64,000 nt of DNA, taken from assembly GCA_009746045.1 (NCBI GenBank), contig RPFO01000667.1:5372719-5436718 (forward strand), written 5' to 3'. Position numbers and translations under genes: made by a program. The notes under the pieces were generated by a model. It made no database searches. It worked only from the letters and a program-made list of their open reading frames with translations, and was not told the DNA's origin. How positions within the stretch are numbered: position 1 is the first letter of the stretch; every line of letters starts with the position of its first letter. Positions 13,900 to 51,659 of this stretch are shown here, in pieces. Source of the DNA: Mesostigma viride (taxonomy: Eukaryota; Streptophyta; Mesostigmatophyceae; Mesostigmatales; Mesostigmataceae).

Positions 13900-13930
<31 letters not shown>

Positions 13931-16900
13931 TCCCCCGAGAATATTCAAACGCTGCCGTACGCAGCCACGCGGTGTATGATACGCAAGCCACGGGAATAGC
14001 TCTTGAGCGGGGGATGTGGTGATGCATGGTCACGCGCGATACCAGGGGATGTGGTGATGCATGGTCACGCGCGATACCAGGGGATGTGGTGATGCATGGT
14101 CACACGCGCGATACCAGGGGATGTGGTGATGCATGGTCACGCGCGATACCAGGGGATGTGGTGATGCATGGTCACGCGCGATACCAGGGGATGTGGTGAT
14201 ACATGGTCACGCGCGCGATACCAGGGGATGTGGTGATGCATGGTCACACGCGATACCAGGGGATGTGGTGATACATGGTCACGCGCGATACCAGGGGATG
14301 TGGTGATGCATGGTCACGCGCGCGATACCAGGGGATGTGGTGATGCATGGTCACGCGCGCGATACCAGGGGATGTGGTGATGCATGGTCACACGCGATAC
14401 CAGGGGATGTGGTGATGCATGGTCACACGCGATACCAGGGGATGTGGTGATGCATGGTCACACGCGCGATACCAGGGGATGTGGTGATGCATGGTCACAC
14501 GCGATACCAGGGGATGTGGTGATGCATGGTCACGCGCGATACCAGGGGATGTGGTGATGCATGGTCACGCGCGCGATACCAGGGGATGTGGTGATGCATG
14601 GTCACACGCGATACCAGGGGATGTGGTGATGCATGGTCACACGCGATACCAGGGGATGTGGTGATGCATGGTCACACGCGATACCAGGGGATGTGGTGAT
14701 GCATGGTCACACGCGATACCAGGGGATGTGGTGATGCATGGTCACACGCGCGATACCAGGGGATGTGGTGATGCATGGTCACACGCGATACCAGGGGATG
14801 TGGTGATACATGGTCACACGCGATACCAGGGGATGTGGTGATGCATGGTCACACGCGATACCAGGGGATGTGGTGATGCATGGTCACACGCGATACCAGG
14901 GGATGTGGTGATGCATGGTCACGCGCGATACCAGGGGATGTGGTGATACATGGTCACGCGCGATACCAGGGGATGTGGTGATGCATGGTCACACGCGATA
15001 CCAGGGGATGTGGTGATGCATGGTCACACGCGATACCAGGGGATGTGGTGATGCATGGTCACACGCGATACCAGGGGATGTGGTGATACATGGTCACGCG
15101 CGATACCAGGGGATGTGGTGATGCATGGTCACACGCGATACCAGGGGATGTGGTGATACATGGTCACGCGCGCGATACCAGGGGATGTGGTGATGCATGG
15201 TCACGCGCGATACCAGGGGATGTGGTGATGCATGGTCACACGCGATACCAGGGGATGTGGTGATGCATGGTCACGCGCGATACCAGGGGATGTGGTGATG
15301 CATGGTCACGCGCGATACCAGGGGATGTGGTGATGCATGGTCACGCGCGATACCAGGGGATGTGGTGATGCATGGTCACACGCGATACCAGGGGATGTGG
15401 TGATGCATGGTCACACGCGATACCAGGGGATGTGGTGATGCATGGTCACACGCGCGATACCAGGGGATGTGGTGATGCATGGTCACGCGCGATACCAGGG
15501 GATGTGGTGATGCATGGTCACACGCGATACCAGGGGATGTGGTGATGCATGGTCACACGCGCGATACCAGGGGATGTGGTGATGCATGGTCACACGCGAT
15601 ACCAGGGGATGTGGTGATGCATGGTCACACGCGATACCAGGGGATGTGGTGATGCATGGTCACACGCGATACCAGGGGATGTGGTGATGCATGGTCACAC
15701 GCGATACCAGGGGATGTGGTGATGCATGGTCACACGCGATACCAGGGGATGTGGTGATGCATGGTCACGCGCGATACCAGGGGATGTGGTGATGCATGGT
15801 CACACGCGATACCAGGGGATGTGGTGATGCATGGTCACACGCGATACCAGGGGATGTGGTGATGCATGGTCACGCGCGATACCAGGGGATGTGGTGATGC
15901 ATGGTCACACGCGATACCAGGGGATGTGGTGATGCATGGTCACGCGCGATACCAGGGGATGTGGTGATGCATGGTCACACGCGATACCAGGGGATGTGGT
16001 GATGCATGGTCACGCGCGATACCAGGGGATGTGGTGATGCATGGTCACACGCGATACCAGGGGATGTGGTGATGCATGGTCACACGCGATACCAGGGGAT
16101 GTGGTGATGCATGGTCACACGCGATACCAGGGGATGTGGTGATGCATGGTCACACGCGATACCAGGGGATGTGGTGATGCATGGTCACGCGCGATACCAG
16201 GGGATGTGGTGATGCATGGTCACACGCGATACCAGGGGATGTGGTGATGCATGGTCACACGCGATACCAGGGGATGTGGTGATGCATGGTCACGCGCGAT
16301 ACCAGGGGATGTGGTGATGCATGGTCACACGCGATACCAGGGGATGTGGTGATGCATGGTCACGCGCGATACCAGGGGATGTGGTGATGCATGGTCACAC
16401 GCGATACCAGGGGATGTGGTGATGCATGGTCACGCGCGATACCAGGGGATGTGGTGATGCATGGTCACGCGCGATACCAGGGGATGTGGTGATGCATGGT
16501 CACACGCGATACCAGGGGATGTGGTGATGCATGGTCACACGCGCGATACCAGGGGATGTGGTGATGCATGGTCACGCGCGATACCAGGGGATGTGGTGAT
16601 GCATGGTCACACGCGATACCAGGGGATGTGGTGATGCATGGTCACGCGCGATACCAGGGGATGTGGTGATGCATGGTCACGCGCGATACCAGGGGATGTG
16701 GTGATGCATGGTCACACGCGCGATACCAGGGGATGTGGTGATGCATGGTCACACGCGATACCAGGGGATGTGGTGATGCATGGTCACACGCGCGATACCA
16801 GGGGATGTGGTGATACATGGTCACACGCGATACCAGGGAATGTGGTGATGCATGGTCACGCGCGATACCAGGGGATGTGGTGATGCATGGTCACACGCGA

Positions 16901-19900
16901 TACCAGGGGATGTGGTGATGCATGGTCACACGCGATACCAGGGGATGTGGTGATGCATGGTCACACGCGATACCAGGGGATGTGGTGATGCATGGTCACA
17001 CGCGCGATACCAGGGGATGTGGTGATGCATGGTCACGCGCGATACCAGGGGATGTGGTGATGCATGGTCACGCGCGATACCAGGGGATGTGGTGATGCAT
17101 GGTCACGCGCGATACCAGGGGATGTGGTGATGCATGGTCACACGCGATACCAGGGGATGTGGTGATGCATGGTCACACGCGATACCAGGGGATGTGGTGA
17201 TGCATGGTCACACGCGATACCAGGGGATGTGGTGATGCATGGTCACACGCGCGATACCAGGGGATGTGGTGATGCATGGTCACGCGCGATACCAGGGGAT
17301 GTGGTGATGCATGGTCACACGCGATACCAGGGGATGTGGTGATGCATGGTCACGCGCGATACCAGGGGATGTGGTGATGCATGGTCACGCGCGATACCAG
17401 GGGATGTGGTGATGCATGGTCACGCGCGATACCAGGGGATGTGGTGATGCATGGTCACACGCGATACCAGGGGATGTGGTGATGCATGGTCACACGCGAT
17501 ACCAGGGGATGTGGTGATGCATGGTCACACGCGATACCAGGGGATGTGGTGATGCATGGTCACACGCGATACCAGGGGATGTGGTGATGCATGGTCACAC
17601 GCGATACCAGGGGATGTGGTGATGCATGGTCACACGCGATACCAGGGGATGTGGTGATGCATGGTCACGCGCGATACCAGGGGATGTGGTGATGCATGGT
17701 CACACGCGATACCAGGGGATGTGGTGATGCATGGTCACACGCGATACCAGGGGATGTGGTGATGCATGGTCACGCGCGATACCAGGGGATGTGGTGATGC
17801 ATGGTCACACGCGATACCAGGGGATGTGGTGATGCATGGTCACACGCGATACCAGGGGATGTGGTGATGCATGGTCACACGCGATACCAGGGGATGTGGT
17901 GATGCATGGTCACACGCGATACCAGGGGATGTGGTGATGCATGGTCACACGCGATACCAGGGGATGTGGTGATGCATGGTCACACGCGATACCAGGGGAT
18001 GTGGTGATGCATGGTCACACGCGATACCAGGGGATGTGGTGATGCATGGTCACACGCGATACCAGGGGATGTGGTGATGCATGGTCACACGCGATACCAG
18101 GGGATGTGGTGATGCATGGTCACGCGCGATACCAGGGGATGTGGTGATGCATGGTCACGCGCGATACCAGGGGATGTGGTGATGCATGGTCACACGCGAT
18201 ACCAGGGGATGTGGTGATGCATGGTCACACGCGATACCAGGGGATGTGGTGATGCATGGTCACACGCGATACCAGGGGATGTGGTGATGCATGGTCACAC
18301 GCGATACCAGGGGATGTGGTGATGCATGGTCACGCGCGATACCAGGGGATGTGGTGATGCATGGTCACACGCGATACCAGGGGATGTGGTGATGCATGGT
18401 CACACGCGATACCAGGGGATGTGGTGATGCATGGTCACACGCGATACCAGGGGATGTGGTGATGCATGGTCACACGCGATACCAGGGGATGTGGTGATGC
18501 ATGGTCACGCGCGATACCAGGGGATGTGGTGATGCATGGTCACACGCGCGATACCAGGGGATGTGGTGATGCATGGTCACACGCGATACCAGGGGATGTG
18601 GTGATGCATGGTCACACGCGATACCAGGGGATGTGGTGATGCATGGTCACGCGCGATACCAGGGGATGTGGTGATGCATGGTCACACGCGATACCAGGGG
18701 ATGTGGTGATGCATGGTCACACGCGATACCAGGGGATGTGGTGATGCATGGTCACACGCGATACCAGGGGATGTGGTGATGCATGGTCACACGCGATACC
18801 AGGGGATGTGGTGATGCATGGTCACGCGCGATACCAGGGGATGTGGTGATGCATGGTCACACGCGATACCAGGGGATGTGGTGATGCATGGTCACACGCG
18901 ATACCAGGGGATGTGGTGATGCATGGTCACACGCGATACCAGGGGATGTGGTGATGCATGGTCACACGCGATACCAGGGGATGTGGTGATGCATGGTCAC
19001 ACGCGCGATACCAGGGGATGTGGTGATGCATGGTCACGCGCGATACCAGGGGATGTGGTGATGCATGGTCACACGCGATACCAGGGGATGTGGTGATGCA
19101 TGGTCACACGCGATACCAGGGGATGTGGTGATGCATGGTCACACGCGATACCAGGGGATGTGGTGATGCATGGTCACACGCGATACCAGGGGATGTGGTG
19201 ATGCATGGTCACACGCGCGATACCAGGGGATGTGGTGATGCATGGTCACACGCGATACCAGGGGATGTGGTGATGCATGGTCACACGCGATACCAGGGGA
19301 TGTGGTGATGCATGGTCACACGCGATACCAGGGGATGTGGTGATGCATGGTCACACGCGATACCAGGGGATGTGGTGATGCATGGTCACACGCGATACCA
19401 GGGGATGTGGTGATGCATGGTCACGCGCGATACCAGGGGATGTGGTGATGCATGGTCACACGCGATACCAGGGGATGTGGTGATGCATGGTCACACGCGA
19501 TACCAGGGGATGTGGTGATGCATGGTCACACGCGATACCAGGGGATGTGGTGATGCATGGTCACACGCGATACCAGGGGATGTGGTGATGCATGGTCACA
19601 CGCGATACCAGGGGATGTGGTGATGCATGGTCACACGCGATACCAGGGGATGTGGTGATGCATGGTCACACGCGATACCAGGGGATGTGGTGATGCATGG
19701 TCACACGCGATACCAGGGGATGTGGTGATGCATGGTCACACGCGATACCAGGGGATGTGGTGATGCATGGTCACACGCGATACCAGGGGATGTGGTGATG
19801 CATGGTCACACGCGATACCAGGGGATGTGGTGATGCATGGTCACACGCGATACCAGGGGATGTGGTGATGCATGGTCACGCGCGATACCAGGGGATGTGG

Positions 19901-22900
19901 TGATGCATGGTCACGCGCGATACCAGGGGATGTGGTGATACATGGTCACACGCGATACCAGGGGATGTGGTGATGCATGGTCACACGCGATACCAGGGGA
20001 TGTGGTGATGCATGGTCACACGCGATACCAGGGGATGTGGTGATGCATGGTCACACGCGATACCAGGGGATGTGGTGATGCATGGTCACACGCGATACCA
20101 GGGGATGTGGTGATGCATGGTCACACGCGATACCAGGGGATGTGGTGATGCATGGTCACACGCGATACCAGGGGATGTGGTGATGCATGGTCACACGCGA
20201 TACCAGGGGATGTGGTGATGCATGGTCACACGCGATACCAGGGGATGTGGTGATGCATGGTCACACGCGATACCAGGGGATGTGGTGATGCATGGTCACA
20301 CGCGATACCAGGGGATGTGGTGATGCATGGTCACGCGCGATACCAGGGGATGTGGTGATGCATGGTCACACGCGATACCAGGGGATGTGGTGATGCATGG
20401 TCACACGCGCGATACCAGGGGATGTGGTGATGCATGGTCACACGCGATACCAGGGGATGTGGTGATGCATGGTCACACGCGATACCAGGGGATGTGGTGA
20501 TGCATGGTCACACGCGATACCAGGGGATGTGGTGATGCATGGTCACGCGCGATACCAGGGGATGTGGTGATGCATGGTCACACGCGCGATACCAGGGGAT
20601 GTGGTGATGCATGGTCACACGCGATACCAGGGGATGTGGTGATGCATGGTCACGCGCGATACCAGGGGATGTGGTGATGCATGGTCACACGCGATACCAG
20701 GGGATGTGGTGATGCATGGTCACACGCGATACCAGGGGATGTGGTGATGCATGGTCACACGCGATACCAGGGGATGTGGTGATGCATGGTCACACGCGAT
20801 ACCAGGGGATGTGGTGATGCATGGTCACACGCGCGATACCAGGGGATGTGGTGATGCATGGTCACGCGCGATACCAGGGGATGTGGTGATGCATGGTCAC
20901 ACGCGATACCAGGGGATGTGGTGATGCATGGTCACGCGCGATACCAGGGGATGTGGTGATGCATGGTCACACGCGCGATACCAGGGGATGTGGTGATGCA
21001 TGGTCACACGCGATACCAGGGGATGTGGTGATGCATGGTCACACGCGATACCAGGGGATGTGGTGATGCATGGTCACACGCGATACCAGGGGATGTGGTG
21101 ATGCATGGTCACACGCGATACCAGGGGATGTGGTGATGCATGGTCACACGCGATACCAGGGGATGTGGTGATGCATGGTCACACGCGATACCAGGGGATG
21201 TGGTGATGCATGGTCACACGCGATACCAGGGGATGTGGTGATGCATGGTCACACGCGATACCAGGGGATGTGGTGATGCATGGTCACGCGCGATACCAGG
21301 GGATGTGGTGATGCATGGTCACACGCGATACCAGGGGATGTGGTGATGCATGGTCACACGCGATACCAGGGGATGTGGTGATGCATGGTCACACGCGATA
21401 CCAGGGGATGTGGTGATGCATGGTCACACGCGATACCAGGGGATGTGGTGATGCATGGTCACGCGCGATACCAGGGGATGTGGTGATGCATGGTCACACG
21501 CGATACCAGGGGATGTGGTGATGCATGGTCACACGCGATACCAGGGGATGTGGTGATGCATGGTCACACGCGATACCAGGGGATGTGGTGATGCATGGTC
21601 ACACGCGATACCAGGGGATGTGGTGATGCATGGTCACACGCGCGATACCAGGGGATGTGGTGATGCATGGTCACGCGCGATACCAGGGGATGTGGTGATG
21701 CATGGTCACACGCGATACCAGGGGATGTGGTGATGCATGGTCACACGCGATACCAGGGGATGTGGTGATGCATGGTCACACGCGATACCAGGGGATGTGG
21801 TGATGCATGGTCACACGCGATACCAGGGGATGTGGTGATGCATGGTCACACGCGATACCAGGGGATGTGGTGATGCATGGTCACACGCGATACCAGGGGA
21901 TGTGGTGATGCATGGTCACGCGCGATACCAGGGGATGTGGTGATGCATGGTCACACGCGATACCAGGGGATGTGGTGATGCATGGTCACACGCGATACCA
22001 GGGGATGTGGTGATGCATGGTCACACGCGATACCAGGGGATGTGGTGATGCATGGTCACACGCGATACCAGGGGATGTGGTGATGCATGGTCACGCGCGA
22101 TACCAGGGGATGTGGTGATGCATGGTCACACGCGATACCAGGGGATGTGGTGATACATGGTCACGCGCGATACCAGGGGATGTGGTGATGCATGGTCACA
22201 CGCGATACCAGGGGATGTGGTGATACATGGTCACACGCGATACCAGGGGATGTGGTGATGCATGGTCACGCGCGATACCAGGGGATGTGGTGATGCATGG
22301 TCACACGCGATACCAGGGGATGTGGTGATGCATGGTCACACGCGCGATACCAGGGGATGTGGTGATGCATGGTCACGCGCGATACCAGGGGATGTGGTGA
22401 TGCATGGTCACACGCGATACCAGGGGATGTGGTGATGCATGGTCACACGCGATACCAGGGGATGTGGTGATGCATGGTCACACGCGATACCAGGGGATGT
22501 GGTGATACATGGTCACACGCGATACCAGGGGATGTGGTGATGCATGGTCACGCGCGATACCAGGGGATGTGGTGATGCATGGTCACACGCGATACCAGGG
22601 GATGTGGTGATGCATGGTCACGCGCGATACCAGGGGATGTGGTGATGCATGGTCACACGCGATACCAGGGGATGTGGTGATACATGGTCACACGCGATAC
22701 CAGGGGATGTGGTGATGCATGGTCACGCGCGATACCAGGGGATGTGGTGATGCATGGTCACACGCGATACCAGGGGATGTGGTGATGCATGGTCACACGC
22801 GATACCAGGGGATGTGGTGATACATGGTCACACGCGATACCAGGGGATGTGGTGATGCATGGTCACACGCGATACCAGGGGATGTGGTGATACATGGTCA

Positions 22901-25900
22901 CACGCGATACCAGGGGATGTGGTGATGCATGGTCACGCGCGATACCAGGGGATGTGGTGATGCATGGTCACACGCGATACCAGGGGATGTGGTGATACAT
23001 GGTCACACGCGATACCAGGGGATGTGGTGATACATGGTCACGCGATACCAGGGGATGTGGTGATGCATGGTCACACGCGATACCAGGGGATGTGGTGATG
23101 CATGGTCACGCGCGATACCAGGGGATGTGGTGATGCATGGTCACGCGCGATACCAGGGGATGTGGTGATGCATGGTCACGCGCGATACCAGGGGATGTGG
23201 TGATGCATGGTCACACGCGATACCAGGGGATGTGGTGATGCATGGTCACACGCGATACCAGGGGATGTGGTGATGCATGGTCACACGCGATACCAGGGGA
23301 TGTGGTGATGCATGGTCACACGCGATACCAGGGGATGTGGTGATGCATGGTCACACGCGATACCAGGGGATGTGGTGATGCATGGTCACACGCGATACCA
23401 GGGGATGTGGTGATACATGGTCACGCGCGATACCAGGGGATGTGGTGATACATGGTCACACGCGATACCAGGGGATGTGGTGATACATGGTCACACGCGA
23501 TACCAGGGGATGTGGTGATACATGGTCACGCGCGATACCAGGGGATGTGGTGATACATGGTCACACGCGATACCAGGGGATGTGGTGATACATGGTCACG
23601 CGCGATACCAGGGGATGTGGTGATGCATGGTCACACGCGATACCAGGGGATGTGGTGATACATGGTCACGCGCGATACCAGGGGATGTGGTGATGCATGG
23701 TCACGCGCGATACCAGGGGATGTGGTGATGCATGGTCACACGCGATACCAGGGGATGTGGTGATACATGGTCACACGCGATACCAGGGGATGTGGTGATG
23801 CATGGTCACACGCGATACCAGGGGATGTGGTGATGCATGGTCACACGCGATACCAGGGGATGTGGTGATACATGGTCACACGCGCGATACCAGGGGATGT
23901 GGTGATGCATGGTCACGCGCGATACCAGGGGATGTGGTGATACATGGTCACGCGCGATACCAGGGGATGTGGTGATGCATGGTCACACGCGATACCAGGG
24001 GATGTGGTGATACATGGTCACACGCGATACCAGGGGATGTGGTGATGCATGGTCACGCGCGATACCAGGGGATGTGGTGATACATGGTCACACGCGATAC
24101 CAGGGGATGTGGTGATGCATGGTCACACGCGCGATACCAGGGGATGTGGTGATGCATGGTCACGCGCGATACCAGGGGATGTGGTGATGCATGGTCACAC
24201 GCGATACCAGGGGATGTGGTGATGCATGGTCACGCGCGATACCAGGGGATGTGGTGATGCATGGTCACACGCGATACCAGGGGATGTGGTGATGCATGGT
24301 CACACGCGATACCAGGGGATGTGGTGATGCATGGTCACGCGCGATACCAGGGGATGTGGTGATACATGGTCACACGCGCGATACCAGGGGATGTGGTGAT
24401 GCATGGTCACGCGCGATACCAGGGGATGTGGTGATGCATGGTCACGCGCGATACCAGGGGATGTGGTGATGCATGGTCACACGCGATACCAGGGGATGTG
24501 GTGATGCATGGTCACGCGCGATACCAGGGGATGTGGTGATGCATGGTCACGCGCGATACCAGGGGATGTGGTGATGCATGGTCACACGCGCGATACCAGG
24601 GGATGTGGTGATACATGGTCACGCGCGATACCAGGGGATGTGGTGATGCATGGTCACACGCGATACCAGGGGATGTGGTGATGCATGGTCACACGCGATA
24701 CCAGGGGATGTGGTGATGCATGGTCACACGCGCGATACCAGGGGATGTGGTGATGCATGGTCACACGCGATACCAGGGGATGTGGTGATACATGGTCACA
24801 CGCGATACCAGGGGATGTGGTGATGCATGGTCACGCGCGATACCAGGGGATGTGGTGATACATGGTCACACGCGATACCAGGGGATGTGGTGATACATGG
24901 TCACACGCGATACCAGGGGATGTGGTGATGCATGGTCACACGCGATACCAGGGGATGTGGTGATGCATGGTCACACGCGCGATACCAGGGGATGTGGTGA
25001 TGCATGGTCACACGCGATACCAGGGGATGTGGTGATACATGGTCACACGCGATACCAGGGGATGTGGTGATGCATGGTCACACGCGATACCAGGGGATGT
25101 GGTGATGCATGGTCACACGCGCGATACCAGGGGATGTGGTGATGCATGGTCACACGCGATACCAGGGGATGTGGTGATACATGGTCACACGCGATACCAG
25201 GGGATGTGGTGATGCATGGTCACACGCGATACCAGGGGATGTGGTGATACATGGTCACGCGCGATACCAGGGGATGTGGTGATACATGGTCACGCGCGCG
25301 ATACCAGGGGATGTGGTGATGCATGGTCACGCGCGATACCAGGGGATGTGGTGATGCATGGTCACACGCGATACCAGGGGATGTGGTGATACATGGTCAC
25401 ACGCGATACCAGGGGATGTGGTGATGCATGGTCACGCGCGATACCAGGGGATGTGGTGATGCATGGTCACGCGCGATACCAGGGGATGTGGTGATACATG
25501 GTCACGCGCGCGATACCAGGGGATGTGGTGATGCATGGTCACGCGCGATACCAGGGGATGTGGTGATGCATGGTCACACGCGATACCAGGGGATGTGGTG
25601 ATACATGGTCACACGCGATACCAGGGGATGTGGTGATGCATGGTCACGCGCGATACCAGGGGATGTGGTGATACATGGTCACACGCGATACCAGGGGATG
25701 TGGTGATGCATGGTCACACGCGATACCAGGGGATGTGGTGATGCATGGTCACACGCGCGATACCAGGGGATGTGGTGATGCATGGTCACACGCGATACCA
25801 GGGGATGTGGTGATGCATGGTCACACGCGCGATACCAGGGGATGTGGTGATGCATGGTCACGCGCGATACCAGGGGATGTGGTGATGCATGGTCACACGC

Positions 25901-28900
25901 GATACCAGGGGATGTGGTGATGCATGGTCACACGCGCGATACCAGGGGATGTGGTGATGCATGGTCACACGCGCGATACCAGGGGATGTGGTGATGCATG
26001 GTCACGCGCGATACCAGGGGATGTGGTGATGCATGGTCACGCGCGATACCAGGGGATGTGGTGATGCATGGTCACGCGCGCGATACCAGGGGATGTGGTG
26101 ATGCATGGTCACGCGCGATACCAGGGGATGTGGTGATGCATGGTCACACGCGATACCAGGGGATGTGGCGATGCATGGTCACGCGCAATTCCGACCAGGC
26201 ACGGTGGCATGTTAGGACGCCTGGGGATGATTCCACCCTAGGGGAGGGCTTGCACGCTTGGGTGCAACGCGGGCATGCATTTCAGCAGGGAGGAAGCGGT
26301 TGAGGTCTAACTAAACCTGCCTGAAGCTTTTTTTGTGGCAGTTTCTGACCCTGTTCTTCCCTCTTTGGTCGGCTTATTTATTCGCATGTGCGATGGTTCA
26401 TTTGTTCGTTTGTCCTCCATTTGTTTGTTCTTGTCTCTGTCTTCTCATTGCCTTAGCCCCCCTGCTATTGATCTTCTTTACAAAAGATAATAAATTCCGG
26501 TGTTCTTGATTGCCCCCGTATTCAATCTCTTCAATGTTTTTTGGTTCTACTGCGACCCTTCTTCACCCAATCCTGTGTTTTAAGCTATGTCCCCTTTTAT
26601 CCCCAAAAGCCTTGCTCTCCCCCCACCCCGCCCCAGCCCCCCCCACCGCTGCGGACGGTGTCAAGGCACACACACCCTGTGCTCACTATTCTATCTCTCT
26701 GTTGATTCCCCCGTTCCCGTTTCCCGTTCCGTTTCTCTACTATTTATTCTACTATATATTCTACTCTATATCCACTATAGATTCTCCCGTTCCTCGACCC
26801 CAACCCCGCTCCCCTTCCTTTCATTCTACTGCCGTTAGGTCTCCTGTTTGACTGGTTCCCGCGTTGGATCCCCACCCCCCACGTGTCTCCCCCCCCCCCC
26901 CCACTGCTTGGGGTCATGGCGTGCCCTCCTTATGCATCCTCCTTTTCGTTGAACCTCCTTATTTTAACCTCGCTTGTTTCAACCTCCTCTCATGTTCCGG
27001 CAATTCTGGCTACTTTCCTGCGGCCTGTTTACTGCAAACCCCCACTTCCCTTCTGCAGCACCGCGGCCGCGGTCAAGGCTCACCCGCGTGCGGACGTGTT
27101 CATCAACTTTGCATCGTTTCGGAGGTAAGCTCGGTTTGCCGATCCCACGAACGAACAAGGCTATTTGGTTGCCGATCCCACGATCAAGCAAGGCTATTTG
27201 GTTGCCGATCCCACGAACAAACAAGGCTATCTGGTTGCCGATCCCACGATCAAACAAGGCTATTTGGTTGCCGATTCCACGAATGTGGAAGGCTATTTTG
27301 TGCTTGAAATTGATACACTAATCTTGGTCACGGTATACCTTGACCTCGCGGTGTGCCTGCCGCGTGCTCGTGTTCAGTCAGGCAACCAGCGTGTAGTGCC
27401 TCATGCAGCGCCGAGGAACTCGCCCATTGGACCCTGGCTGCCCGTCTCGGCACCGTGCCCGCTTGCCTCGCATCTCTCCCGATGATGTACAAGGCCCTCC
27501 GCTGAGCTTATTCTGGAGATGCCCCCCTGGGTCTTACTCCATGTCTCCTGCTCGTCACCACGCGTGCCCGCCCCGCACACCATCAAGGAGACAACCAGCG
27601 CAGGCCAGAAATCGGGAGAATCCGGACCATCACCATCTGTCGGATAGATGTGTCTTGTCTCCTGGTTACCAGCTTGTTGGGTACGTGCAGCCGCGCCCGC
27701 CGTTCTAGGGGCGTCCATGATCGTTTCTCTCACCGCCCCCTCCACTTTGTCTTGCTTCTGCCCCGTTTCTTTTTCTTTTGTGCCCCTCCCTCCCGCCCTG
27801 CACGCCCCACCAGCGCGTACGAGTCGTCCATGGAGGCGCTCAAGTTCCCCACGATCAATGTCGTCGCGATCATCGCCGAGGGCATCCCCGAGCAGGACAC
27901 CAAGCGGCTCATCGCTGCCGCCAAGGCGGGCAACAAGGTAATCCTGGGACCTGCCACGGTGGGCGCGATCCAGGCGGGCTCCTTCAAGGTGGGCGACACG
28001 GCGGGAACGCTGGAGAACATCCTCGAGTGCAAGCTGTACCGAAGAGGCTCCGTCGGCTTTGTCAGCAAGTCGGTACGTCAACATGAAAGTTGCCATGTTT
28101 GCGTGCAAGCTGTACCGGAGAGGCTCCGCCGGCTTTGTCAGCAGGTCGGTACGTCAACTTGAAAGTGGGCATGTTAGCATGCTAGCCTTACAGGAGAGGC
28201 TTCGTCGGCTCTACGGCTTCGCAATGCAACCCCAAGGAAATGGGTTTGGCTTCCAATCTTGTTGCCTTGTGAGCAAGTTGGTATGTGGGCATGAAAGGGA
28301 GTTTGTTGGCATGCGAGTTCGTCATGTTCGTACGTGGGCATGCAAGTCCAAGTAGTCGGCATGCTCGCTGTGCAGGTGACACTTTCCGTTATACGACGGT
28401 ATAATTTTCTGTGCATTCCTACGGTAAGAAATTTTCAATATGACGGCTTCATTAGCAAGTCGGTTGGTGGGCACGTGAGTCCATGTGTTGGGGAATCGGT
28501 GCATGGCATTGGACCAGCATACTAGTTTGATGCCCGTACATTGCATGCCCACGCACTGCATGAGGAAATGGGGGCGTGGCATGCCAGCCTCTGATTCCCT
28601 TGCCGCTTGTCCTGCCTTCCCCTCCCTCATGCTCTGGACATTCCTTGATGGACCCCCCCGTATCTAAAGAACCGCAGTTGGTCAACCGTAGTCAAGTATT
28701 TTGTTTGTTATCTAATTTGCTAGTCCTTCCCTTCCCTCTCCGTCCCTGTTTCTGTCCTGCCCTTCCCTATCCTCTCCGCCCTCTCTCCCTCCCCTTTTGT
28801 GCTCGCAGCCACCCACGTGTGTGCACACATGGACTGCCGACGGCGACCACCTTGTTCCTTCCCCCCTCGCCCCCACATGCACATACATGCACATACTCCA

Positions 28901-31900
28901 CATGGAGAACCGCGCTTGCCTCACCACCCCAATTCCCTCACCCCACCCCCCACGTGTTGCGCATACGCATATTATAGTATACTTTGTTGCATTACCGCAG
29001 GGCGGTCTGTCCATTTCCCTTACCCACTCCCCACGTGTTGCGCACATATACCTTTTAAATATCTTCTGTTTTGATACCTTTTAATACCTTTTGATACCTT
29101 TTTAATACCTTTTGTTTTGATACCTTTTAAAATACCTTTTGATACCTTTGTTGAAACGGTTTTGTTGAATGTTTGTGTTGCAGGGCGGTCTGTCCAATGA
29201 AATGTACAACATGCTCTCCAAGACCACGGACGGCATCTACGAAGGTGAGGGTGGAGCAGGTCACTGTATCATAGTGCACCATGTACATGGAAGACCACGG
29301 ACGGCATCTACGAAGGTGAGGGTGGAGCAGGTCACTGTATTTACATGGAAGGCCACGGACGGCATCTACGAAGGTGAGGGTGGAGCAGGTCACTGTATCA
29401 TAGTGCACCATGTACATGGAAGACCACGGATGGCATCTACGAAGGTGAGGGTGGAGCAGGTCATTCTTTGTCGGTCTTTGCAGCAGGGTGTGTGTGGTGG
29501 TCATGACCTCCCAGCAGGTTTTGCGTCTAATTAGCTAATGCTGATATCCTAGATGCTTGTCTGCAGTTCTACCTCATCATTACAGCAGGTTTTGCGTCTA
29601 ATTAGCTAATGCTGATACCCTAGATGCTTTTCTGCAGTTCTACCTCATCATACCACTCCATGCCGCTCATGACCGCCGTGTGTGTGGCTGTGGTGTCGCC
29701 AGGTGTCGCGATCGGAGGCGATGCGTTCCCAGGGTCCACGTTGTCGGAGCACATCTTGCGCTACAACAACATCCCGGGGGTGAGTGTGCCCTTTAGTGAC
29801 CATGTCCGCCCTATAGTAATCACCCTATGTCCGCCTCACAAGGACTCTTTAAAAGACCTCCTTTTTGACCTCCTTAAGTGTAAGACTCCTCATTTATGAG
29901 ACCTCCACATAAGACCACATTCCCTTACCAAGAACTCCTTCAAATACCTCCTTTTTTAAACAGTTGGGACTATGTACGAGACCTCCACAATAGAGTGACC
30001 CTGATCTCTCAGCTGCGAGCACAATCAGAGTGATCTGCGAGGCTGCGTACACTTTGATCGCAGTGCATTCGGCACTGATGACCTTTGCCTGGATTGCATG
30101 GCTCATCAATAATCATTGCCTGGATGATGTGGCTCATCAATAATCTTTGCCTCGATGGCGTGGCGAGGACGCGGAGACTAATACTCACTAGCGTGCCGGT
30201 GCTCATCTATCCAGTACTTCAAGTCCAAGTACAGCTTGTATGGTACTTTACTTACTAACATAGCAGTAGATAGGTAGTAGGCACCGGAGCAACCGTGCTG
30301 GTGCCATGCGTGCATGGTGCCGCATCATTGCATATCTTCCCACCTTTCATCGGTGTCCCTTTCACCAGATCAAGATGATGAAAGGCGTCCTTCCATGCAT
30401 GCATGTCCCCCGTGTATCAATCTTTCTATTTGGATGTATGGAAAGGTTTGCTTCTGTGATAACCACCGGCCACCCTAACGCACCCACCCCACCCCACCCC
30501 GTGTGCCAGTCTAAGGTGATGGTCGTGCTTCCATGCGTGCGTTATGCCACATCTTATGCTACTAAATATAGTATTTATCATAATCGGTTTTCTCTATACT
30601 ACTATAATAGTATTTGTCATCATCGGTTTTCTCTATACTACTTTAAATAGTATTTATCATCATCGGTTTTCTCTGTACTACTATAAATAGTATTTATGAT
30701 CATCGGTTTTCTCTATACTATTATAAATAGTATTTATCATCATCGGTTTTCTCTATACTACCATAAATAGTATTTGTCATCATCGGTTTTCTCTATACTA
30801 CCATAAATAGTATTTGTCATCATCGTTTTTTTCTATGTTTGCATCCCTCCTCCCCGCCCCTTTTCTGCCCCTTGCCTTCACCAGATGAAGATGATGGTGG
30901 TCCTGGGCAAGATCTTCTATGTAAATACTTACTGTTCTTCCCCTGTATCTATTCCCCCCCTTTCCCTATTCCCCTTCACCAGATGAAGATGATGGTGGTC
31001 CTGGGCAAGATCTTCTATGTAAATACTTACTGTTCTTCCCCTGTATCTATTCCCCCCCTTTCCCTATTCCCCTTCACCAGATGAAGATGATGGTGGTCCT
31101 GGGCAAGATCTTCTATGTAAATACTTACTGTTCTTCCCCTGTATCTATTCACCCCCTTTCCCTATTCCCCTTCACCAGATCAAGATGATGGTGGTCCTGG
31201 GCGAGATCGGCGGACTGGACGAGTACTCGCTCGTCGCCGCGCTCAAGTCCGGCGTGATCAAGAAGCCCGTAATCGCGTGGGTGTCCGGCACGTGCGCGCG
31301 GCTGTTCAAGTCGGAGGTCCAGTTTGGCCACGCGGTGAGTCAGCAGTACTAAATAAAATTGAAACATTACAACCCTGCATTACAAAATTCGATAGAAATC
31401 CTGTTCTCCGGAATCTCTCGAGTTGGCATTACAAAATAAATTTGAGTAGTCATGAGATTCCGGAGAACGGGATTCGTTTCTGTGTCCCGTTCATTTTGGG
31501 TAAGTTGGCAGTACGGGGGTTGCATGTTTGTTGTATCGGGATCGTGCAAGCCCCAGGAGGAAACTTGGACACTGCCACGGCGCGAAGGATGTAGCTATTC
31601 AGTGCTCGTGTCCGATCGCATCACGTGCTCAAGTCTTTGTTACGGGCCTTTCGTTCTCAATTTATCCCCCGCACTCGGAAGTGTCTTTAATCATGCATGC
31701 AGGCAGGATGCCCAGGAAGAAAGGATGCCCAGGAAGAAAGGGCCGCAATCAATATCGAATGTTATTCTTGAACACCGTCGGAGTCATTGAACACTAATGG
31801 TCGATGCGTCTCGTTCATGCGTTTGTTGGCGCGGGCAGGGCGCCAAGAGCGGCGGCGATATTTATACCAGTAGACGCTTATGTCATGTTCTACAATGGTT

Positions 31901-34900
31901 TGCATACATGGGCGTGGGCACCGCCTTAGGCAGGGTGTTCAGAGCCGCGGCAATCGGTGTTGTTAGACGCTCACGTCCCAAGGGTACTGATTGGAAGGGT
32001 TGGATGCAAGCGCATCATGCAAAAATTGCAACATTAAATTAGGCAATGTCATAAGTTAAAAAGCCAGCTCTTCACTTAGAAAAGAAACTAGACTACTGTT
32101 TGTTTGCGTTATATATTTGCTTGCAGGGCGCCAAGAGCGGGGGGGATGAGGAATCCGCACAGGCAAAGAACGCGGCCCTTGCAGCGGCCGGTGCGCTCGT
32201 GCCCACCTCCTTTGAGGGCCTCCCTGAGCTCATCTTGGCGACGTACCAGAAGCTGGTGGCGGAGGGCAGCATTGTTCCGCGGGACGAGGAGGAGGAGGCC
32301 AAGCTGGTGCCCCCGCCGGTGCCGGAGGACCTGCCGGCGGCGCTGAAGAAAGGCAAAGTGCGCTGCGCGACCAACATCATCAGCAGCATCTGCGACGACC
32401 GCGGTGAGTTTGCCGGGTGTGATGTCAATATGGTATCTGCCATCTTGGCTGCCTGCTCTACCATAGTGGAGTCATCACGGAACTGTTAGGGTCAAAAGTT
32501 ACAGTCCTGTTACGTAGTAATCACTATACTTCAAGGACAAGAGTTATAGTAGTGGTAGCACAAGCATGACGTGTCATCGCTGTATTTTAGGGACTGACCA
32601 AAGTCACCAGCGCTGTCGGCGTCGACCCCATTTCGATGTTGGGACATTGGCACGTCCCTGCCTTCCTGTCTTCCTGTTGCCTGCTGTCTTTATTAGTATG
32701 AACATCATTATCGTGCGCGTCTCTGCCTCCCCTCTGCCTTCTGTCTTGATTAGTACGAACATCACACACATCTTGTCCCCTTCTCCTCTCGCCCTCGTCG
32801 GCCATTGCCTCCATCCCAACCTGCCCCCCCCACACACACACATTCGCTATCCCCCCCCCCGTCTCCCAATCTCTGCCTAAAGGTCTCCCAGTGTCTGCCG
32901 CTAGCCCCTGGCCAGGCGCCCACTAGAAGCTCCGCACCCACCAGAAGCCACGTACCCACCAGAAACTACTTATGTCGAACAACTACCACCGCACATCACA
33001 CGTCACTCATCCCCTACGCCACCCTGCCTCCCCTGCCTGTCTCCACCCACCAGGCGAACAGCCCACGTATGCGACCGTGCCCATCTCCACAACCATGTTA
33101 CCACCACATCACGCATCACGCATTTTTCTTCCCTTATGTTTGCCACCGTGCCTCCCCTGCGTGTCGCCGACCCCCCAGGCGAGGAGCCCACGTATGCGGG
33201 TGTGCCCATCTCAACGATCATCGAGGCAAACTACGGCATTGGCGACGTGATCAGCCTGCTCTGGTTCAAGCGCAAGCTGCCGCCCTACTGCACGCGCTTC
33301 ATGGAGGTATGCCGCCCTACCTCACGCACACTGTGGAGGTATGCCGCCGCACGGCACGCGCTTCATGGAGGTATGCCGCCCTACCTCACGCACACTGTGG
33401 AGGTATGCCGCCGCACGGCACGCGCTTCATGGAGGTATGCAGCAGAGAATCAGGGGTTGGTCATGTCTGGCTTGACAGGCCTACCGCATGCGCTGTGTGG
33501 AGGTATGGGAAGCTTGGGGGACGCTTGGGGAGGTGGCGTGAGATCTTGGAGGGTCATTCACATCTGGTGTGACAGGCTTACACCCTCCGCATTGGTAGAT
33601 TTACTAAATAATTATGAGGCTGGGCGCCGGCCACCTGCAAACGATAAATAAAACAAAAGATTTTCAATTAACTAATTCCTGAGTGTACTCCCCTGTAGTT
33701 TTTCTAGCTACCAAACAAACAAAGAACGTGTAAATAAGTATTCTTAGACTGCCAAGAGCTCTTCTTTTGCGGTAAAAAACAAAGAAATATTAAATCTCTG
33801 GCTGAAAAATGTGCTTTTACTAGCCGTAAGAGCAGTGCATCCGGCTGGGTTATACAAAACAAACAAAGAATTATTAAATTTTGCAGCCAGTTCAACGGTT
33901 GTTCGGTAACCAAACAAACAAACTAATAATTAATTAATTGGGCGGGCACGGTAGCACTTTCAACCAATAAAACGCTATTGTCTAATTCCGAAGGGCCTTT
34001 CGGCTGAACTGAATTAAAACTGCCAATGCGGAGGGTGTACTGGACGCACTGTGTGGGCGCACATGCCCCGGCCCTCCTCATGCCCCAACCCTCCTCATGC
34101 CCCGACCCTCCTAATGCCCCAGGGTATCTTCCCTATTTCCTCCCCCCCCCACACACAGATGTGCATCATTGTGCGCGGACCACGGCCGTTGTGCCTCATT
34201 TGTCTTATTTTTTTATTGATTTATTGGTATCATTATCATTGTTTATTTCTTGCGTTCCCCAGATGTGCATCATGCTGTGCGCGGACCACGGGCCGTGCGT
34301 GTCGGGCGCCCACAGCACCATCGTGGCATCGCGCGCGGGGAAAGACTTGGTGGCCTGCCTCGCGTCTGGTGAGGCCTCTGGTGTTGCCGTGGTGGGCCCC
34401 CCTATGTGTTGCAATGGTGGGGCCTCCTATGTGTTGCAATGGTGGGGCCTCCTGTAGGTTGAAATGCATCCATGGTCGCATGTATGTCCGCCTGTGCTGT
34501 GGGTTGGTTCACCCTGGCTGCCTCTCGTTCATGTAAAACTGTTGCTGTTTCTTTTCTTGTTTGTCAGGCACGGCTGCCGTTGGCCTGTTGAAACAAAATC
34601 AAGGGTGTGCTCAAGTGGAGTGTGCTGGGGGCATCTGAATCACCCTGACATTGGCGAAAAATAGCGACGCCCATTAGCATTTGTAAGAAGTGCCTCAGAA
34701 AACACGGGTGGAGGACTACTTGTGGCAGCCAAGGCGCTAGGAAACCAGATAGCCTGGGAGCTTAGTGCTATAAGAGGTAATACATAGTAGTAGTAAATAA
34801 GACGGATTTGGGGCCCTTGTACCTGCAAATTTTTCAATCTTCTGATGCTGATATCCATGAATCAGCAAAAAAAGTGTCTACAGCGAGAACACTAGCAGTC

Positions 34901-37411
34901 ATTAGAACCAAGGTAGCAGAAATTAAAGTAGTAGTATCATGATGTTGTCGTTGAATTGAAGGAGCGCTACTCTTCAACTCCATTCGATTCCGGTTTGGAA
35001 TGGTGTCAGGCCGGCCCTCGATGGACGCTGCCCGTAGATGGTCCACTCGAGTCGCATCTCTGAGCACTCCTCAAGACAAGACAAGACTCATCCACGATTT
35101 GGGGCACTTCTTCTTTGCTTGTCGTCTGGAGATCATCCCATATACCCACAGTAACCCCGTTATGAAAAAATTGAGGGAGAAGCGGTTGGATCGGGGCTGG
35201 GTTCAAATCAAATCAAATCCAATCCAATCCAATCCAATCCGATTTCGTATAGCTGTTGTTCCTGTGGCTGGAATCGGGTCACGCCCACTTGCCGAAACCT
35301 AACCCATCCTCCTTGAATCGAGCGCCGTGCCACCGGGAGCATATCGCGCTGTTTCCGGACTATGGGCTACCCCTTTATAATGTGACTCCTCCCCCATGTT
35401 ATATATATATATATATATATATATATCCCCATCTGATAATGTGACTCCTCCCCCTCTTGCTTCTATTCCCCTTGCTTTTGTGTGTTTTCCTTTGCCCCAT
35501 GTTGTGTCCCATGCGACGCCTTCTCTTTTCTGCTTCTCTCTGTGGCAGGTTTGTTGACAATCGGCCCACGGTTCGGAGGTGCCATCGATGACGCCGCGCG
35601 CTATTTTAAGATGGCGGTGGACAAGGTGGGTGGGGCATCCCTTTCTTGAATAGGAAAACCAACCAGACTTCTCGTAGCGACAAACCACGACTCAACGATT
35701 GCGGCGGAAAAGGTGGTTGGCATAGGGGCACCCCTCCCCTTAAAATATAATGAATAAATAGCGAATATCCTTTAAATAGGGAGCCAGCCATGCTGCTCGT
35801 GTCGTTGGTTGGGTTCCTCAAACGTGGCCGTGGGTTACATGGTCAACGGCTGCCTCATCCACTGTGAATGACCAGCTGGAGTTTACAGCGTCCGAAACAG
35901 GGACCAGCCCCTCCCTTATAAGAGCACACCCCTTCTCCATGAATGCCACACCCCTGGGTTATTTATGGCATCCGCGTCGCGTCCCCACGTCATCAGCATC
36001 ACTGGTCTCGCCTGGCATCTGGCACGGTGGGGCATGGGCGCGTCCTTGAACTGATATTCAATCAAATCAATTTTGATTTTTGAACTGAAGTTTCTCTGTT
36101 CCCTGTCCATTCGGCTCATTCGGCCGCTAGGTGCCTAGCTTAGCCATATGTCCCTCTCTGCCATTGGGCGCGCTTCCGTTCCCTCTTCCACCTCCGTCAT
36201 GCTTCAGGCCGCCTCTACTGCTCATTCAGCCGCGTAGCCGGGTGTTGGTCTCTGCCCTTCAGTGCGCTCCAGTCCCCTCTGCCGACTCCTTGATGCTTCA
36301 TGGCATGGGCGCGCCCCTCGTACTGATGCTGCCCTTTATGCTCTTCTGCCACCCAACTTGCTCGCGTACTGGATGACAGGGCATGGACGCGCCGGAGTAC
36401 GTGGAGGACATGAAGAAGAAGGGCTTGCGCGTGCCTGGCATCGGCCACCGGTGCGTGACGTGTGGCGAGCAGGAAGAGAGGGAGAAGAAGGCAAAGACCA
36501 GTTCCTGGGAGAGAAGAGAAGGGACTAGAGTGTAGGGGAGAAGAGAAGGGACTAGAGTGTAGTGGAGAAGAGAAAGGGCTTAAGTGGGGGTCCTTCCCAC
36601 ACACATGCTCACCCTCCCACGCCTCCTCTTCCCCCCACCGCTCAACCCCCCTCCCCTTCACCACCACCAGAAGCATCAAGAGCAAGGACAACAAGGACAA
36701 GGACTATGAGCATGTCATGTTCCTGACCGTGCGTCACATCCCGACCCTGCGTCCACACCTTCCCTTAACATCACATCCACCATTCCCTCCCACACACATG
36801 CTCCCCCTCCCCACGCCTCCTCATCCCCAACACGGCTCCCCCCCCCCCTCTCCACCATCAGCATCAAGAGCAAGGACAACAAGGACAAGCGCGTCGAGTT
36901 CCTGATCGCCTACGCCGAGTCGCACTTCCCCAACGTGAAGCACCTTGAGTTTGCGCTCACCGTCGAGAAGTACACGCTCACCAAGGCCGCCAACCTGGTG
37001 CTCAACGTGGACGGGTGCATCGGCGCGCTGTTCTTGGACCTGCTCGGCTCGTGCTCCATGTTCACCACCGCCGAGATCAATGAGATTGTGGACATCGGGT
37101 ACCTGAACGGCCTCTTTGTGCTTGCGCGCAGCATCGGCCTCATCGGGTACGTCGTGGCGTCTTTTCAGGAAGGAACTGCCTACTACATAGTAGTACATGC
37201 TCAAGCATGCGTGTGTCACGTTACACCAGGGCCAAGGCCCGTTTGTCCTCACGCGCAGCATCTGCCTCGTCAGGTAGGTTGTGTGTCTTCTCTTCTATGG
37301 CGGTCGTGTTTGGTGGTACTGCTGGCCTGCTGCGCTTGTTTAGATTTATGTACTTATTATTTCTGTAGTAGTATAGTAGCGATCGATTCTAGTATGATAC
37401 CGCTTTTACTT

Positions 37412-37447
<36 letters not shown>

Positions 37448-37660
37448 TTGTGCTGCTGCTGCTCCTTGGTCTGTAGATATGAGTATGTTGGGCTTATTCT
37501 TGATTCCTCTTTCTTCTTATAATTGGTCGGTTTCCATGCAATCCTGGACATATGCTGCTGTTCCCCCCTTGTCACACGGAGCAGGCATTCGTTTGACCAG
37601 AAGCGCCTGAAGCAGCCCCTGTACCGGCATCCATGGGAGGATGTCCTGTACACGACTTAG
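12022..37660 (+). CDS. ACLB: ATP-citrate lyase subunit B, complete, 14 exons
   Basis: It converts citrate, CoA and ATP to acetyl-CoA and oxaloacetate in the cytosol, working with subunit A (not in this window). Exons: 12022-12130, 13426-13528, 27059-27124, 27814-28072, 29184-29244, 29703-29779, 31179-31334, 32127-32403, 33179-33306, 34263-34368, 35549-35625, 36380-36450, 36862-37146, 37585-37660. Every junction is GT-AG and in phase, giving 616 residues (plant ACLB is about 608). The start reads [20 protein letters not shown], then VQRMLDFDF. The ligase-like part carries the phospho-histidine motif QFGHAGAKSGG (His about 276). The citrate-synthase-like part carries [11 protein letters not shown] (His about 421), VPGIGHR (His about 496) and LVLNVDG. 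The end is [17 protein letters not shown]...VLYTT. Introns total about 23.8 kb and hold the 12-kb minisatellite and many copied exon edges. No fused subunit A domain is present. An AATAAA lies at 37965. Confidence 0.97.
12560..12760 (+). repeat. Two-copy tandem repeat, 100-bp period, in intron 1
   Basis: GCTATTAAGTGGTAGGAGAG and the following GATGCCTTGATGACCCCGTC occur at 12592 and again at 12692, with the flanking GTGAGGGTTTCCTT-type sequence also repeated. Confidence 0.8.
12955..13090 (+). repeat. Short tandem repeats in intron 1
   Basis: Repeats of GGTCTAGGCCTTAA (2-3 copies) pass into GCTAGGCTGGGTCAAGGCTT plus CAAGGGGTCC (two copies, 37-bp period). They are intronic. Confidence 0.65.
13900..13930 (+). 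repeat. (TAA)n microsatellite
   Basis: Nine or ten AAT/TAA units, just upstream of the giant minisatellite in intron 2. Confidence 0.9.
14008..26187 (+). repeat. Giant minisatellite, 35-bp unit, about 345 copies, inside ACLB intron 2
   Basis: The monomer is GATACCAGGGGATGTGGTGA followed by TGCATGGTCACACGC (35 bp). Variants are GCGCGC for ACACGC, an extra CG giving 37 bp, and TGATACATGG for TGATGCATGG. One 33-bp unit occurs at about 23040, one GGGAATGTGG unit at about 16836, and the last unit is GATGTGGCGATGC. No unrelated sequence interrupts about 12.18 kb. The unit contains GTGA...TCAC around ATGCAT (a weak hairpin) and an alternating purine-pyrimidine CACACGCGCG stretch (possible Z-DNA). 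TACATGG variants are frequent at 22140-25700 and near the left edge but nearly absent at 15200-22100. The whole array lies between exons 2 and 3. Confidence 0.97.
26188..27058 (+). other. Remainder of ACLB intron 2
   Basis: This is non-repetitive, pyrimidine-rich sequence with many T/C runs leading to the TTCTGCAG acceptor of exon 3. Open frames here are by-products of low-complexity sequence. No gene is seen. Confidence 0.6.
27142..27295 (+). repeat. 33-bp tandem repeat at the start of ACLB intron 3
   Basis: Five copies of TTGCCGATCCCACGAACAAA plus CAAGGCTATTTGG stand in tandem. The 33-bp period keeps all frames open. It begins 17 bp after the exon 3 donor. Confidence 0.9.
28101..28480 (+). 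repeat. Copies of the exon 4 3' edge and donor inside intron 4
   Basis: The exon 4 end (GCAAGCTGTACCGAAGAGGC ... GTCAGCAAGTCG and the GTACGTCAAC donor, 28029-28082) recurs at 28105-28158 with a GTACGTCAAC donor. It then recurs in more decayed form: CAGGAGAGGCTTCGTCGGCT at 28190, GTGAGCAAGTTGGTATGT at 28268 and TTAGCAAGTCGGTTGGTG at 28453. The first copy would add codons in frame if used. Confidence 0.85.
29221..29480 (+). repeat. Four tandem copies of the exon 5 3' edge and donor
   Basis: The real edge is 29221-29246 (GACGGCATCTACGAAG/GTGAGG). Copies begin at 29292, 29350 and 29421 (periods 71, 58 and 71 bp), each with an intact GAAG/GTGAGG donor and the following GGTGGAGCAGGTCACTGTAT. Four equal donors therefore compete within 200 bp. 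Confidence 0.9.
29513..29655 (+). repeat. 71-bp tandem duplication in ACLB intron 5
   Basis: AGCAGGTTTTGCGTCTAATT through TTCTACCTCATCAT is present twice, offset by 71 bp, just upstream of the exon 6 acceptor. Confidence 0.85.
30563..30836 (+). repeat. 40-bp minisatellite in ACLB intron 6
   Basis: About seven copies of ATAGTATTTATCATCATCGG plus TTTTCTCTATACTACTATAA, with few substitutions. Confidence 0.9.
30877..31200 (+). repeat. 98-bp tandem units carrying the exon 7 acceptor and exon start
   Basis: TTCACCAG followed by AT(G/C)AAGATGATGGTGGTCCT starts at 30877, 30975, 31073 and 31171, exactly 98 bp apart. Only the last is the true exon 7. The upstream three turn into AAGATCTTCTATGTAAATAC soon after the acceptor. 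Two older, decayed copies are at 30361 (TTCACCAGATCAAGATGATG) and about 30506. Confidence 0.93.
31832..31870 (+). repeat. Copy of the exon 8 acceptor and exon start in intron 7
   Basis: GGGCAGGGCGCCAAGAGCGG followed by CGGCGATATT at 31834-31863 repeats the start of the true exon 8 (GCAG/GGCGCCAAGAGCGGGGGG at 32123), 288 bp upstream. An intact AG acceptor is present. Confidence 0.85.
33015..33100 (+). repeat. Copy of the exon 9 acceptor and exon start in intron 8
   Basis: CCACCCTGCCTCCCCTGCCT...CACCAG/GCGAACAGCCCACGTATGCG, then a GTGCCCATCTC part, repeats the true junction at 33141-33210 with a 125-bp offset. The acceptor AG is intact. The copied exon part diverges after about 38 bases. Confidence 0.88.
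33291..33510 (+). repeat. Tandem copies of the exon 9 3' edge and donor
   Basis: The true edge CACGCGCTTCATGGAG/GTATGCCGCC (33291-33316) recurs at about 33355 and 33420. Half-copies ending CTGTGGAG/GTATG lie at about 33330 and 33393, and a GTGTGGAG/GTATGGG at 33494. At least five extra donors lie within 200 bp. Confidence 0.88.
34150..34200 (+). repeat. Copy of the exon 10 acceptor and exon start in intron 9
   Basis: CACAG/ATGTGCATCATTGTGCGCGG plus ACCACGGCCG at 34154-34188 matches the true CCCAG/ATGTGCATCATGCTGTGCGC junction 104 bp downstream. The copied ADHG codons are shifted by a small deletion. Confidence 0.88.
35401..35427 (+). repeat. (AT)n microsatellite in ACLB intron 10
   Basis: About 13 AT units. 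The short phrase AATGTGACTCCTCCCCC flanks it on both sides (35378 and 35438), so the tract sits inside a small duplication. Confidence 0.85.
36020..36330 (+). repeat. Copies of the exon 12 start in intron 11
   Basis: The true exon 12 starts GGCATGGACGCGCCGGAGTA at 36380. GGCATGGGCGCGCCCCTCGT and ACTGATGCTGCC at 36302-36333, and GGCATGGGCGCGTCCTTGAA and CTGATATTC at 36031-36060, are related blocks. They are more diverged than the other exon-edge copies. Confidence 0.6.
36505..36575 (+). repeat. 27-bp tandem repeat in ACLB intron 12
   Basis: Three copies of GGAGAAGAGAAGGGACTAGA plus GTGTAG, the last one diverged. Confidence 0.8.
36595..36740 (+). repeat. Copy of the exon 13 acceptor region and exon start in intron 12
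   Basis: CACACATGCTCACCCTCCCA ... ACCACCAG then GCATCAAGAGCAAGGACAAC plus AAGGACAAGG (36599-36703) is repeated about 188 bp downstream as the true junction (36790-36895). The copied exon stays recognisable for about 60 bases (TTCCTGACC against TTCCTGATC). Confidence 0.9.
37235..37285 (+). repeat. Copy of the exon 13 3' edge and donor in intron 13
   Basis: CCGTTTGTCCTCACGCGCAG plus CATCTGCCTCGTCAGGTAGG at 37238-37277 matches the true edge CTTTGTGCTTGCGCGCAGCA plus TCGGCCTCATCGG/GTACG (37109-37151), offset by about 128 bp. Confidence 0.85.
37411..37447 (+). repeat. (GTT)n microsatellite in ACLB intron 13
   Basis: About 12 TTG/GTT units followed by CTGCTGCTGCT. Confidence 0.9.
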
Positions 37661-44240: not shown

Positions 44241-44269
44241 GTTTCTAATTAATTAAGTAATTAATTACC

Positions 44270-45014: not shown

Positions 45015-45019
45015 ATATA

Positions 45020-51648: not shown

Positions 51649-51659
51649 GGCATGACCAT

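Follow-up and report, generated by a model that had tools for sequence, protein, structure and literature searches.

Tandem duplication across an intron–exon boundary is known from the potato RdRp gene PGSC0003DMG402000361 (PMC4974935). There, the 3′ end of an intron and the 5′ portion of the following exon were duplicated together in a local tandem event, and the inner sites are used, giving an extra intron and an extra exon; an 83-bp intronic tandem duplication in the same gene leaves the gene structure unchanged. A related arrangement is found in the gene for ATP-citrate lyase subunit B, ACLB, of the streptophyte Mesostigma viride, which lies in the 64,000-nt stretch of DNA analyzed here (contig RPFO01000667.1, positions 5,372,719 to 5,436,718, forward strand; hereafter, the window). 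Like the potato gene, ACLB contains local tandem duplications that carry an intron end together with the adjoining part of an exon. Unlike in potato, the annotated ACLB protein uses the outer sites only, such that existing introns have grown, and ~10 junctions of a single gene are involved.

Two other described processes bear comparison. Introns can be gained by tandem duplication of AGGT-bearing exon segments (PMC3443670; Drosophila cases, PMC2891723), and ACLB shares with these cases that splicing makes a tandem duplication tolerable. In contrast to such gains, ACLB gives no indication of a new intron, and the in-register end similarity predicted by that route is present in 0 of its 13 introns. 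Repair-mediated duplicates of proximal DNA have been described in vertebrates (PMC2671141), as have small tandem duplications that form in human and mouse cells where breaks leave 3′ overhangs, through fill-in by Pol alpha-primase and end joining (PMC8355091). In both, as in Mesostigma, the copies are small, local, and direct, and splice sites can fall within them. In the human duplicate set, 4 of 824 donors are classed as "Partial exon/intron"; this rate is not comparable with that of Mesostigma because the human set omitted tandem copies within 50 bp (PMC2671141). Unlike the human duplicates, most Mesostigma copies are tandem, and one is found at 13 of 101 junctions in control genes. Among titles and the beginnings of abstracts in the open-access literature, we found no report of a gene with a comparable density of junction copies in which introns grow rather than are gained.

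As argued below, short tandem duplications likely fall regardless of exon edges, and those that straddle a junction survive, lengthening introns and leaving ghosts of exons within them.

Exon-Edge Copies in ACLB

ACLB comprises 14 exons and 13 GT-AG introns at 12022..37660 on the plus strand. The gene model was located with a plant query, after which exact splice edges were fixed; the spliced open reading frame (ORF) encodes 616 amino acids and is identical at 616 of 616 positions to the eukprot record jgi/Mesvir1/24756/Mv22014-RA.1. Each junction was represented by a 40-nt anchor centered on it, which was locally aligned within 1200 nt, a score of at least 34 being counted as a pass. These anchor alignments were used in place of a self-blastn list, which was incomplete for the ACLB copies.

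By this measure, 10 of the 26 ACLB junctions are copied in the adjacent intron, compared with 0 of 26 when the flanks are reversed. The passing junctions are the 3′ edge of exon 4, both edges of exons 5, 9, and 13, and the 5′ edges of exons 7, 8, and 10. No copy reaching a score of 34 was found at exons 1–3, 6, 12, and 14, at the 5′ edges of exons 4 and 11, or at the 3′ edges of exons 7, 8, and 10. When the same anchors were aligned to the 12 non-adjacent ACLB introns, a single one of the 26 passed, that of the exon 2 acceptor, which consists of a C/CA run. The copies are direct and local, with shifts of 32–390 nt and one of 810 nt. Their aligned identity ranges from 79% to 100%, and duplication events of differing ages are therefore likely.

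The original prediction held that at least ten ACLB junctions are duplicated within the neighboring intron, by copies ranging from near-identical to strongly decayed and usually with the splice dinucleotide intact. Nine of its ten junctions are borne out at the places it gave, and the tenth, at exon 12 (36302), scores 24, which is at chance level: the best score in non-adjacent introns reaches 25 with the exon 2 run set aside. The graded divergence is evident, and the splice dinucleotide is intact in 18 of the 18 ACLB copies that align across the junction. Its description of almost every junction as copied was overstated, the firm figure being the 10 of 26 given above. Three further copies had gone unlisted, at the 5′ edge of exon 5 (28997–29013), as a fourth copy at exon 7 (30356–30380), and, probably, at the 3′ edge of exon 11 (35697–35720).

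Neither the exon 4 edge nor the stretch comprising exon 5 and intron 5 has a match beyond its own locus in the 440-Mb genome, and dispersed or mobile elements were rejected as the source of the copies for these two stretches. Local copies are sparser in the flanks of ACLB within the window, at 6% on the left and 8% on the right (2% on the right without two satellite stretches). No second gene with a clear exon structure that could serve as a control was found in the window.

Copied Splice Sites

Of 19 copied sites, 15 fall short of the real site by 1.2 score units at most. If spliced, 20 of the 23 sites considered (a number that includes two alternative AGs of one copy) are predicted to cause an early stop, one (37274) a shifted C terminus, and two (29374 and 33403) an in-frame insertion; 21 of 23 would thus disrupt the ACLB protein. 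Diverged copies retain the splice dinucleotide at 18 of 22 donors and 11 of 11 acceptors, the latter a small number, and neighboring positions are retained similarly. Since the dinucleotides are kept about as well as their neighbors, neutral decay is favored, and special conservation of the copied sites was rejected.

It had also been proposed that the outermost pair of sites is always used. Judged by the annotated protein, this appears to be so. The rule is what selection would leave, and it is partly definitional because copies inside an intron necessarily sit between the outer sites. No special mechanism is needed for it because nearly all inner sites would disrupt the protein.

Placement of Copies Relative to Exon Edges

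Local copies are not confined to the junctions of ACLB. At intron-internal anchors, 23% of 2596 have a local copy (reversed flanks, 0.5%), compared with 38% of junctions. With two random points drawn per ACLB intron, 6.5 hits are expected versus the 10 observed, and 10 or more occurred in 5.2% of draws (P = 0.052); binomial reckonings of the same excess gave P values of 0.06 and 0.14. Among exonic anchors, 24 of 326 have copies, every one of them centered no farther than 44 nt from an exon edge.

Control genes were taken from the same genome: HSP70, the Cpn60/CCT chaperonins, and two adaptins, together providing 53 introns and 106 junctions. The control junctions were predicted by combining profile matches with reading frame and splice signals. 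After introns with a splice score below 4 were dropped, 24 of 27 exon pairs were kept for HSP70, 21 of 23 for Cpn60/CCT, and 8 of 9 for the adaptins; loci L017, L024, L026, L027, and L032 yielded no junctions, and L019 was used for the comparison of gene copies only. At a score of at least 34, 8 of the 106 control junctions have a copy (HSP70, 4/48; Cpn60/CCT, 3/42; adaptins, 1/16), with one hit among reversed flanks, and the passing fractions of intron anchors are 11.1%, 11.5%, and 3.1% for the three families, respectively. A low-complexity filter removed 5 of the 106 junctions, including the L016 donor (score 65), which is among the strongest. After filtering, junctions and intron anchors compare as 13/101 versus 11.5% at a score of at least 28, 7/101 versus 8.4% at 34, and 2/101 versus 6.4% at 40; the 13/101 retains the L015 acceptor, which is of low complexity with a reversed control as high, and an L015 donor hit 879 nt away. 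Exon-edge copies in these genes and the background of local duplication are thus alike in rate, and placement is independent of exon edges in this sample of three chosen families, with a marginal excess in ACLB.

Fifteen control hits score at least 28. Setting aside two in low-complexity runs and one at a distance of 879 nt leaves 12, all of them straddling the junction, in the adjacent intron, and starting 35–160 nt away. In the chaperonin locus L022 (G000:C1468:8076000-8085999), a 76-bp tandem array of ~4 copies spans a donor, starting 20 nt inside the exon, and is as striking as any in ACLB. Junction copies are therefore not peculiar to one gene, L022 and L016 being further examples.

ACLB is nonetheless a hot gene for junction copies. 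Its rate is ~5 times that of the controls at the stricter threshold, and against HSP70 and CCT (the adaptins, counted later, being excluded) the comparison is 10/26 versus 7/90 (Fisher P = 0.0004), a value that is optimistic because ACLB was picked for being striking.

Pairs of near-identical gene copies, a chaperonin pair and an HSP70 paralogue pair, offer a small sample of length differences: four of the seven in the range of 8–600 nt are tandem-like, one of them 43 nt long. The two shortest of the tandem-like differences (8 and 13 nt) are weak, the 13-nt case also scoring 0.62 against its reversed flank. A stricter earlier count gave 3 of 9 indels of at least 5 nt as tandem, and the recount by local alignment omitted differences of more than 600 nt. 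The chaperonin pair, L018 and L019, agrees at ~98% of aligned bases, and one member carries a stretch of ~3.1 kb that the other lacks; the two are either haplotypes or a recent duplication. On contig C2011 of the same assembly (G000), DnaK-, GroEL-, and tRNA-synthetase-like matches lie in single long open frames, and this contig is probably a bacterial contaminant.

Proposed Mechanism and Its Alternatives

We propose that local tandem duplications with units of ~30–200 bp arise along genes without regard to exon edges, probably through error-prone repair or replication, and may then be amplified by slippage or unequal exchange. A duplication wholly within an exon would alter the protein and be lost. 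One that straddles a junction would leave the original outer splice site and the reading frame intact and could persist, its copied exon edge and splice site then lying inside a longer intron and decaying neutrally. Introns would in this manner lengthen from their ends, retaining exon ghosts of graded decay that carry decoy splice sites. The original prediction that introns grow through tandem duplications spanning splice junctions agrees with the local, direct, and graded character of the copies. A direction of duplication to junctions is not apparent: exon-edge copies occur no more often than random intronic tandem repeats in the control sample, which is three families and not the whole genome, and in ACLB they number 10 versus 6.5 expected (P = 0.05).

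Several observations weigh against this proposal. ACLB junctions lie somewhat above the gene's own intron rate, and in a descriptive comparison with intron points at least 150 nt from a junction, the figures are 11/26 versus 23% at a score of at least 28 and 10/26 versus 16% at 34. Copies are found at 10 of 52 control donors versus 3 of 49 acceptors, an asymmetry that random placement does not predict; among the 12 clean control hits the split is 10 versus 2, and in ACLB it is 5 versus 6 at a score of 28. The proposed mechanism does not account for the ~5-fold higher rate of ACLB. The clean two-copy duplications of 58 and 71 bp have no end homology, and simple slippage therefore fails for their first step. 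The controls are three families of our own choosing, some of them paralogous to each other, with predicted junctions.

The excess over intron anchors in ACLB and the donor bias of the controls would both fit duplication that is directed to, or favored at, exon edges, for instance by R-loops, nucleosome edges, or AGGT breakpoints, with intron growth being junction-specific. We nonetheless regard such targeting as unlikely. The 53 other introns show similar rates for junctions and intron anchors at scores of at least 28 and 34, and junctions are the rarer at 40. The excess within ACLB's own introns reaches only P = 0.05 in a gene selected as striking, and exon-edge copies may stay detectable longer, given that one side of the original is conserved.

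It is less probable still that the copies are retained for a role as regulated decoys or cassette exons, serving unproductive ACLB splicing or adding a 12-residue insert from the 98-bp units upstream of exon 7. The high scores of most copied sites would suit this role, as would the predicted disruption of the protein by 21 of 23 of them, which is as expected of poison sites, and three 98-bp units contain AG-36 nt-GT in frame. However, diverged copies keep their dinucleotides about as well as the neighboring bases, and the annotated ACLB protein uses no copied site.

In the Rogers model, an intron is born when an exon segment bearing AGGT is duplicated in tandem, and the copies would be remnants of such births. 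The model and cases of it are on record (PMC3443670, PMC2891723), and we consider it very improbable here. It predicts that the start of an intron resembles the start of the next exon and that the end of an intron resembles the end of the previous exon, but the copies are of the same junction and not of the opposite one. In register, 13 of 13 introns fall within the mismatched-pair control (own sums, 6–20; control maximum, 21), and AGGT intron birth was rejected for ACLB on this mark. When the register is left free, two of the 26 comparisons rise slightly above their 12 mismatched controls, namely the start of intron 3 with the start of exon 4 (22 versus 20) and the start of intron 8 with the start of exon 9 (16 versus 15), an excess that we take as chance among 26 comparisons.

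Although assemblies are error-prone at tandem repeats, there is next to no likelihood of an assembly artefact, since the M. viride genome, presumably in this same assembly, was built from 113-fold PacBio coverage (subread N50, 11.2 kb) and polished with Illumina data (PMC6947507), the subreads are far longer than the ACLB arrays, and several copies are 79–90% identical, beyond what read errors would leave.

Individual Copies and Introns of ACLB

The exons of ACLB, taken from the spliced ORF, lie on the plus strand, as do all copies described here, at 12022–12130, 13426–13528, 27059–27124, 27814–28072, 29184–29244, 29703–29779, and 31179–31334 (exons 1–7) and at 32127–32403, 33179–33306, 34263–34368, 35549–35625, 36380–36450, 36862–37146, and 37585–37660 (exons 8–14).

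At exon 4, a 76-bp tandem duplication of 2.4 copies (28027..28210) spans the donor and includes a copied donor at 28149. An older copy of the same 3′ edge follows at 28264..28297 (27/34 identical; donor GT at 28281), and a third is weak (28444..28464, 18/21; donor GT at 28463); the original prediction had listed all three, at 28105, 28268, and 28453, and the first two are secure. The 5′ edge of exon 5 is copied at 28997..29013 (17/17) with its AG kept. A compound tandem duplication of 58 + 71 = 129 bp spans the exon 5 donor (29220..29463), providing donors at 29316, 29374, and 29445 that are 98–100% identical. Further into intron 5, a 71-bp tandem duplication (29512..29651, 97%) represents the same type of event without a junction.

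In intron 6, the 5′ edge of exon 7 has a distant copy (30356..30380, 24/25) whose acceptor AG lies before 30369, and a 40-bp minisatellite of ~7 copies (30552..30836) includes no junction. The exon 7 acceptor itself is spanned by a 98-bp tandem array of 3.4 units (30875..31208), with copied acceptors before 30885, 30983, and 31081. The AG-36 nt-GT arrangement of the three units delimits 30885–30920, 30983–31018, and 31081–31116; the 36 nt correspond to 12 residues that resemble the start of exon 7, making this a candidate cassette exon in three copies. The 5′ edge of exon 8 is copied at 31835..31859 (23/25; AG kept) and more weakly at 31930..31954, which is 76% identical to the copy at 31835.

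The end of intron 8 and the 5′ edge of exon 9 recur at 33018..33096 with a shift of 125 bp (63/73; AG kept). At the exon 9 donor, a 32/64-bp tandem array of ~5 copies of 32 bp (33278..33443) supplies donors at 33339, 33371, 33403, and 33435, and an older copy of this edge lies at 33480..33507 (23/28; donor 33503). The 5′ edge of exon 10 is copied 104 bp upstream (34156..34189; AG kept). The 3′ edge of exon 11 probably has a decayed copy at 35697..35720 (20/24, score 28). At exon 13, the end of intron 12 and the 5′ edge are copied at 36591..36701 with a shift of 188–193 bp (61/65 over the aligned part), and the 3′ edge is copied at 37236..37292 with a shift of 127 bp (45/57; donor 37274).

Intron 2 differs in scale: its length of 13.5 kb is due to a 12.2-kb minisatellite at 14010–26186, with a 35-bp unit in ~346 copies that are 97% matching. 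According to the M. viride genome paper, introns average 1141.9 bp and repeats make up 30.1% of intron space, and the paper attributes the long introns to repetitive elements (PMC6947507). Outside ACLB, the same long reading frames recur several times in both orientations at 40830–47311, an arrangement that appears transposon-like, and a G-rich minisatellite with a 29-bp unit in ~45 copies occupies 50327–51651.

Implications

ACLB provides a countable example of intron lengthening, in which a genome with long introns also copies its own exon edges. That junction-spanning tandem duplication is frequent enough to be a main route of intron lengthening in Mesostigma, with about one in nine sampled junctions having a decoy self-copy within ~200 nt, is a tentative suggestion that we hold to be rather doubtful. 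If it is true, the Mesostigma spliceosome must routinely choose among near-identical neighboring sites, and there would be steady unproductive splicing that is cleared by RNA decay; from time to time, new exons would also appear in frame, the 36-nt candidate in the 98-bp units before exon 7 being an example. Iso-Seq or RNA-seq data for M. viride have been deposited, according to the genome paper (PMC6947507). The duplicated junctions, at which a series of near-identical donors or acceptors follow one another, constitute a natural experiment on splice-site choice.

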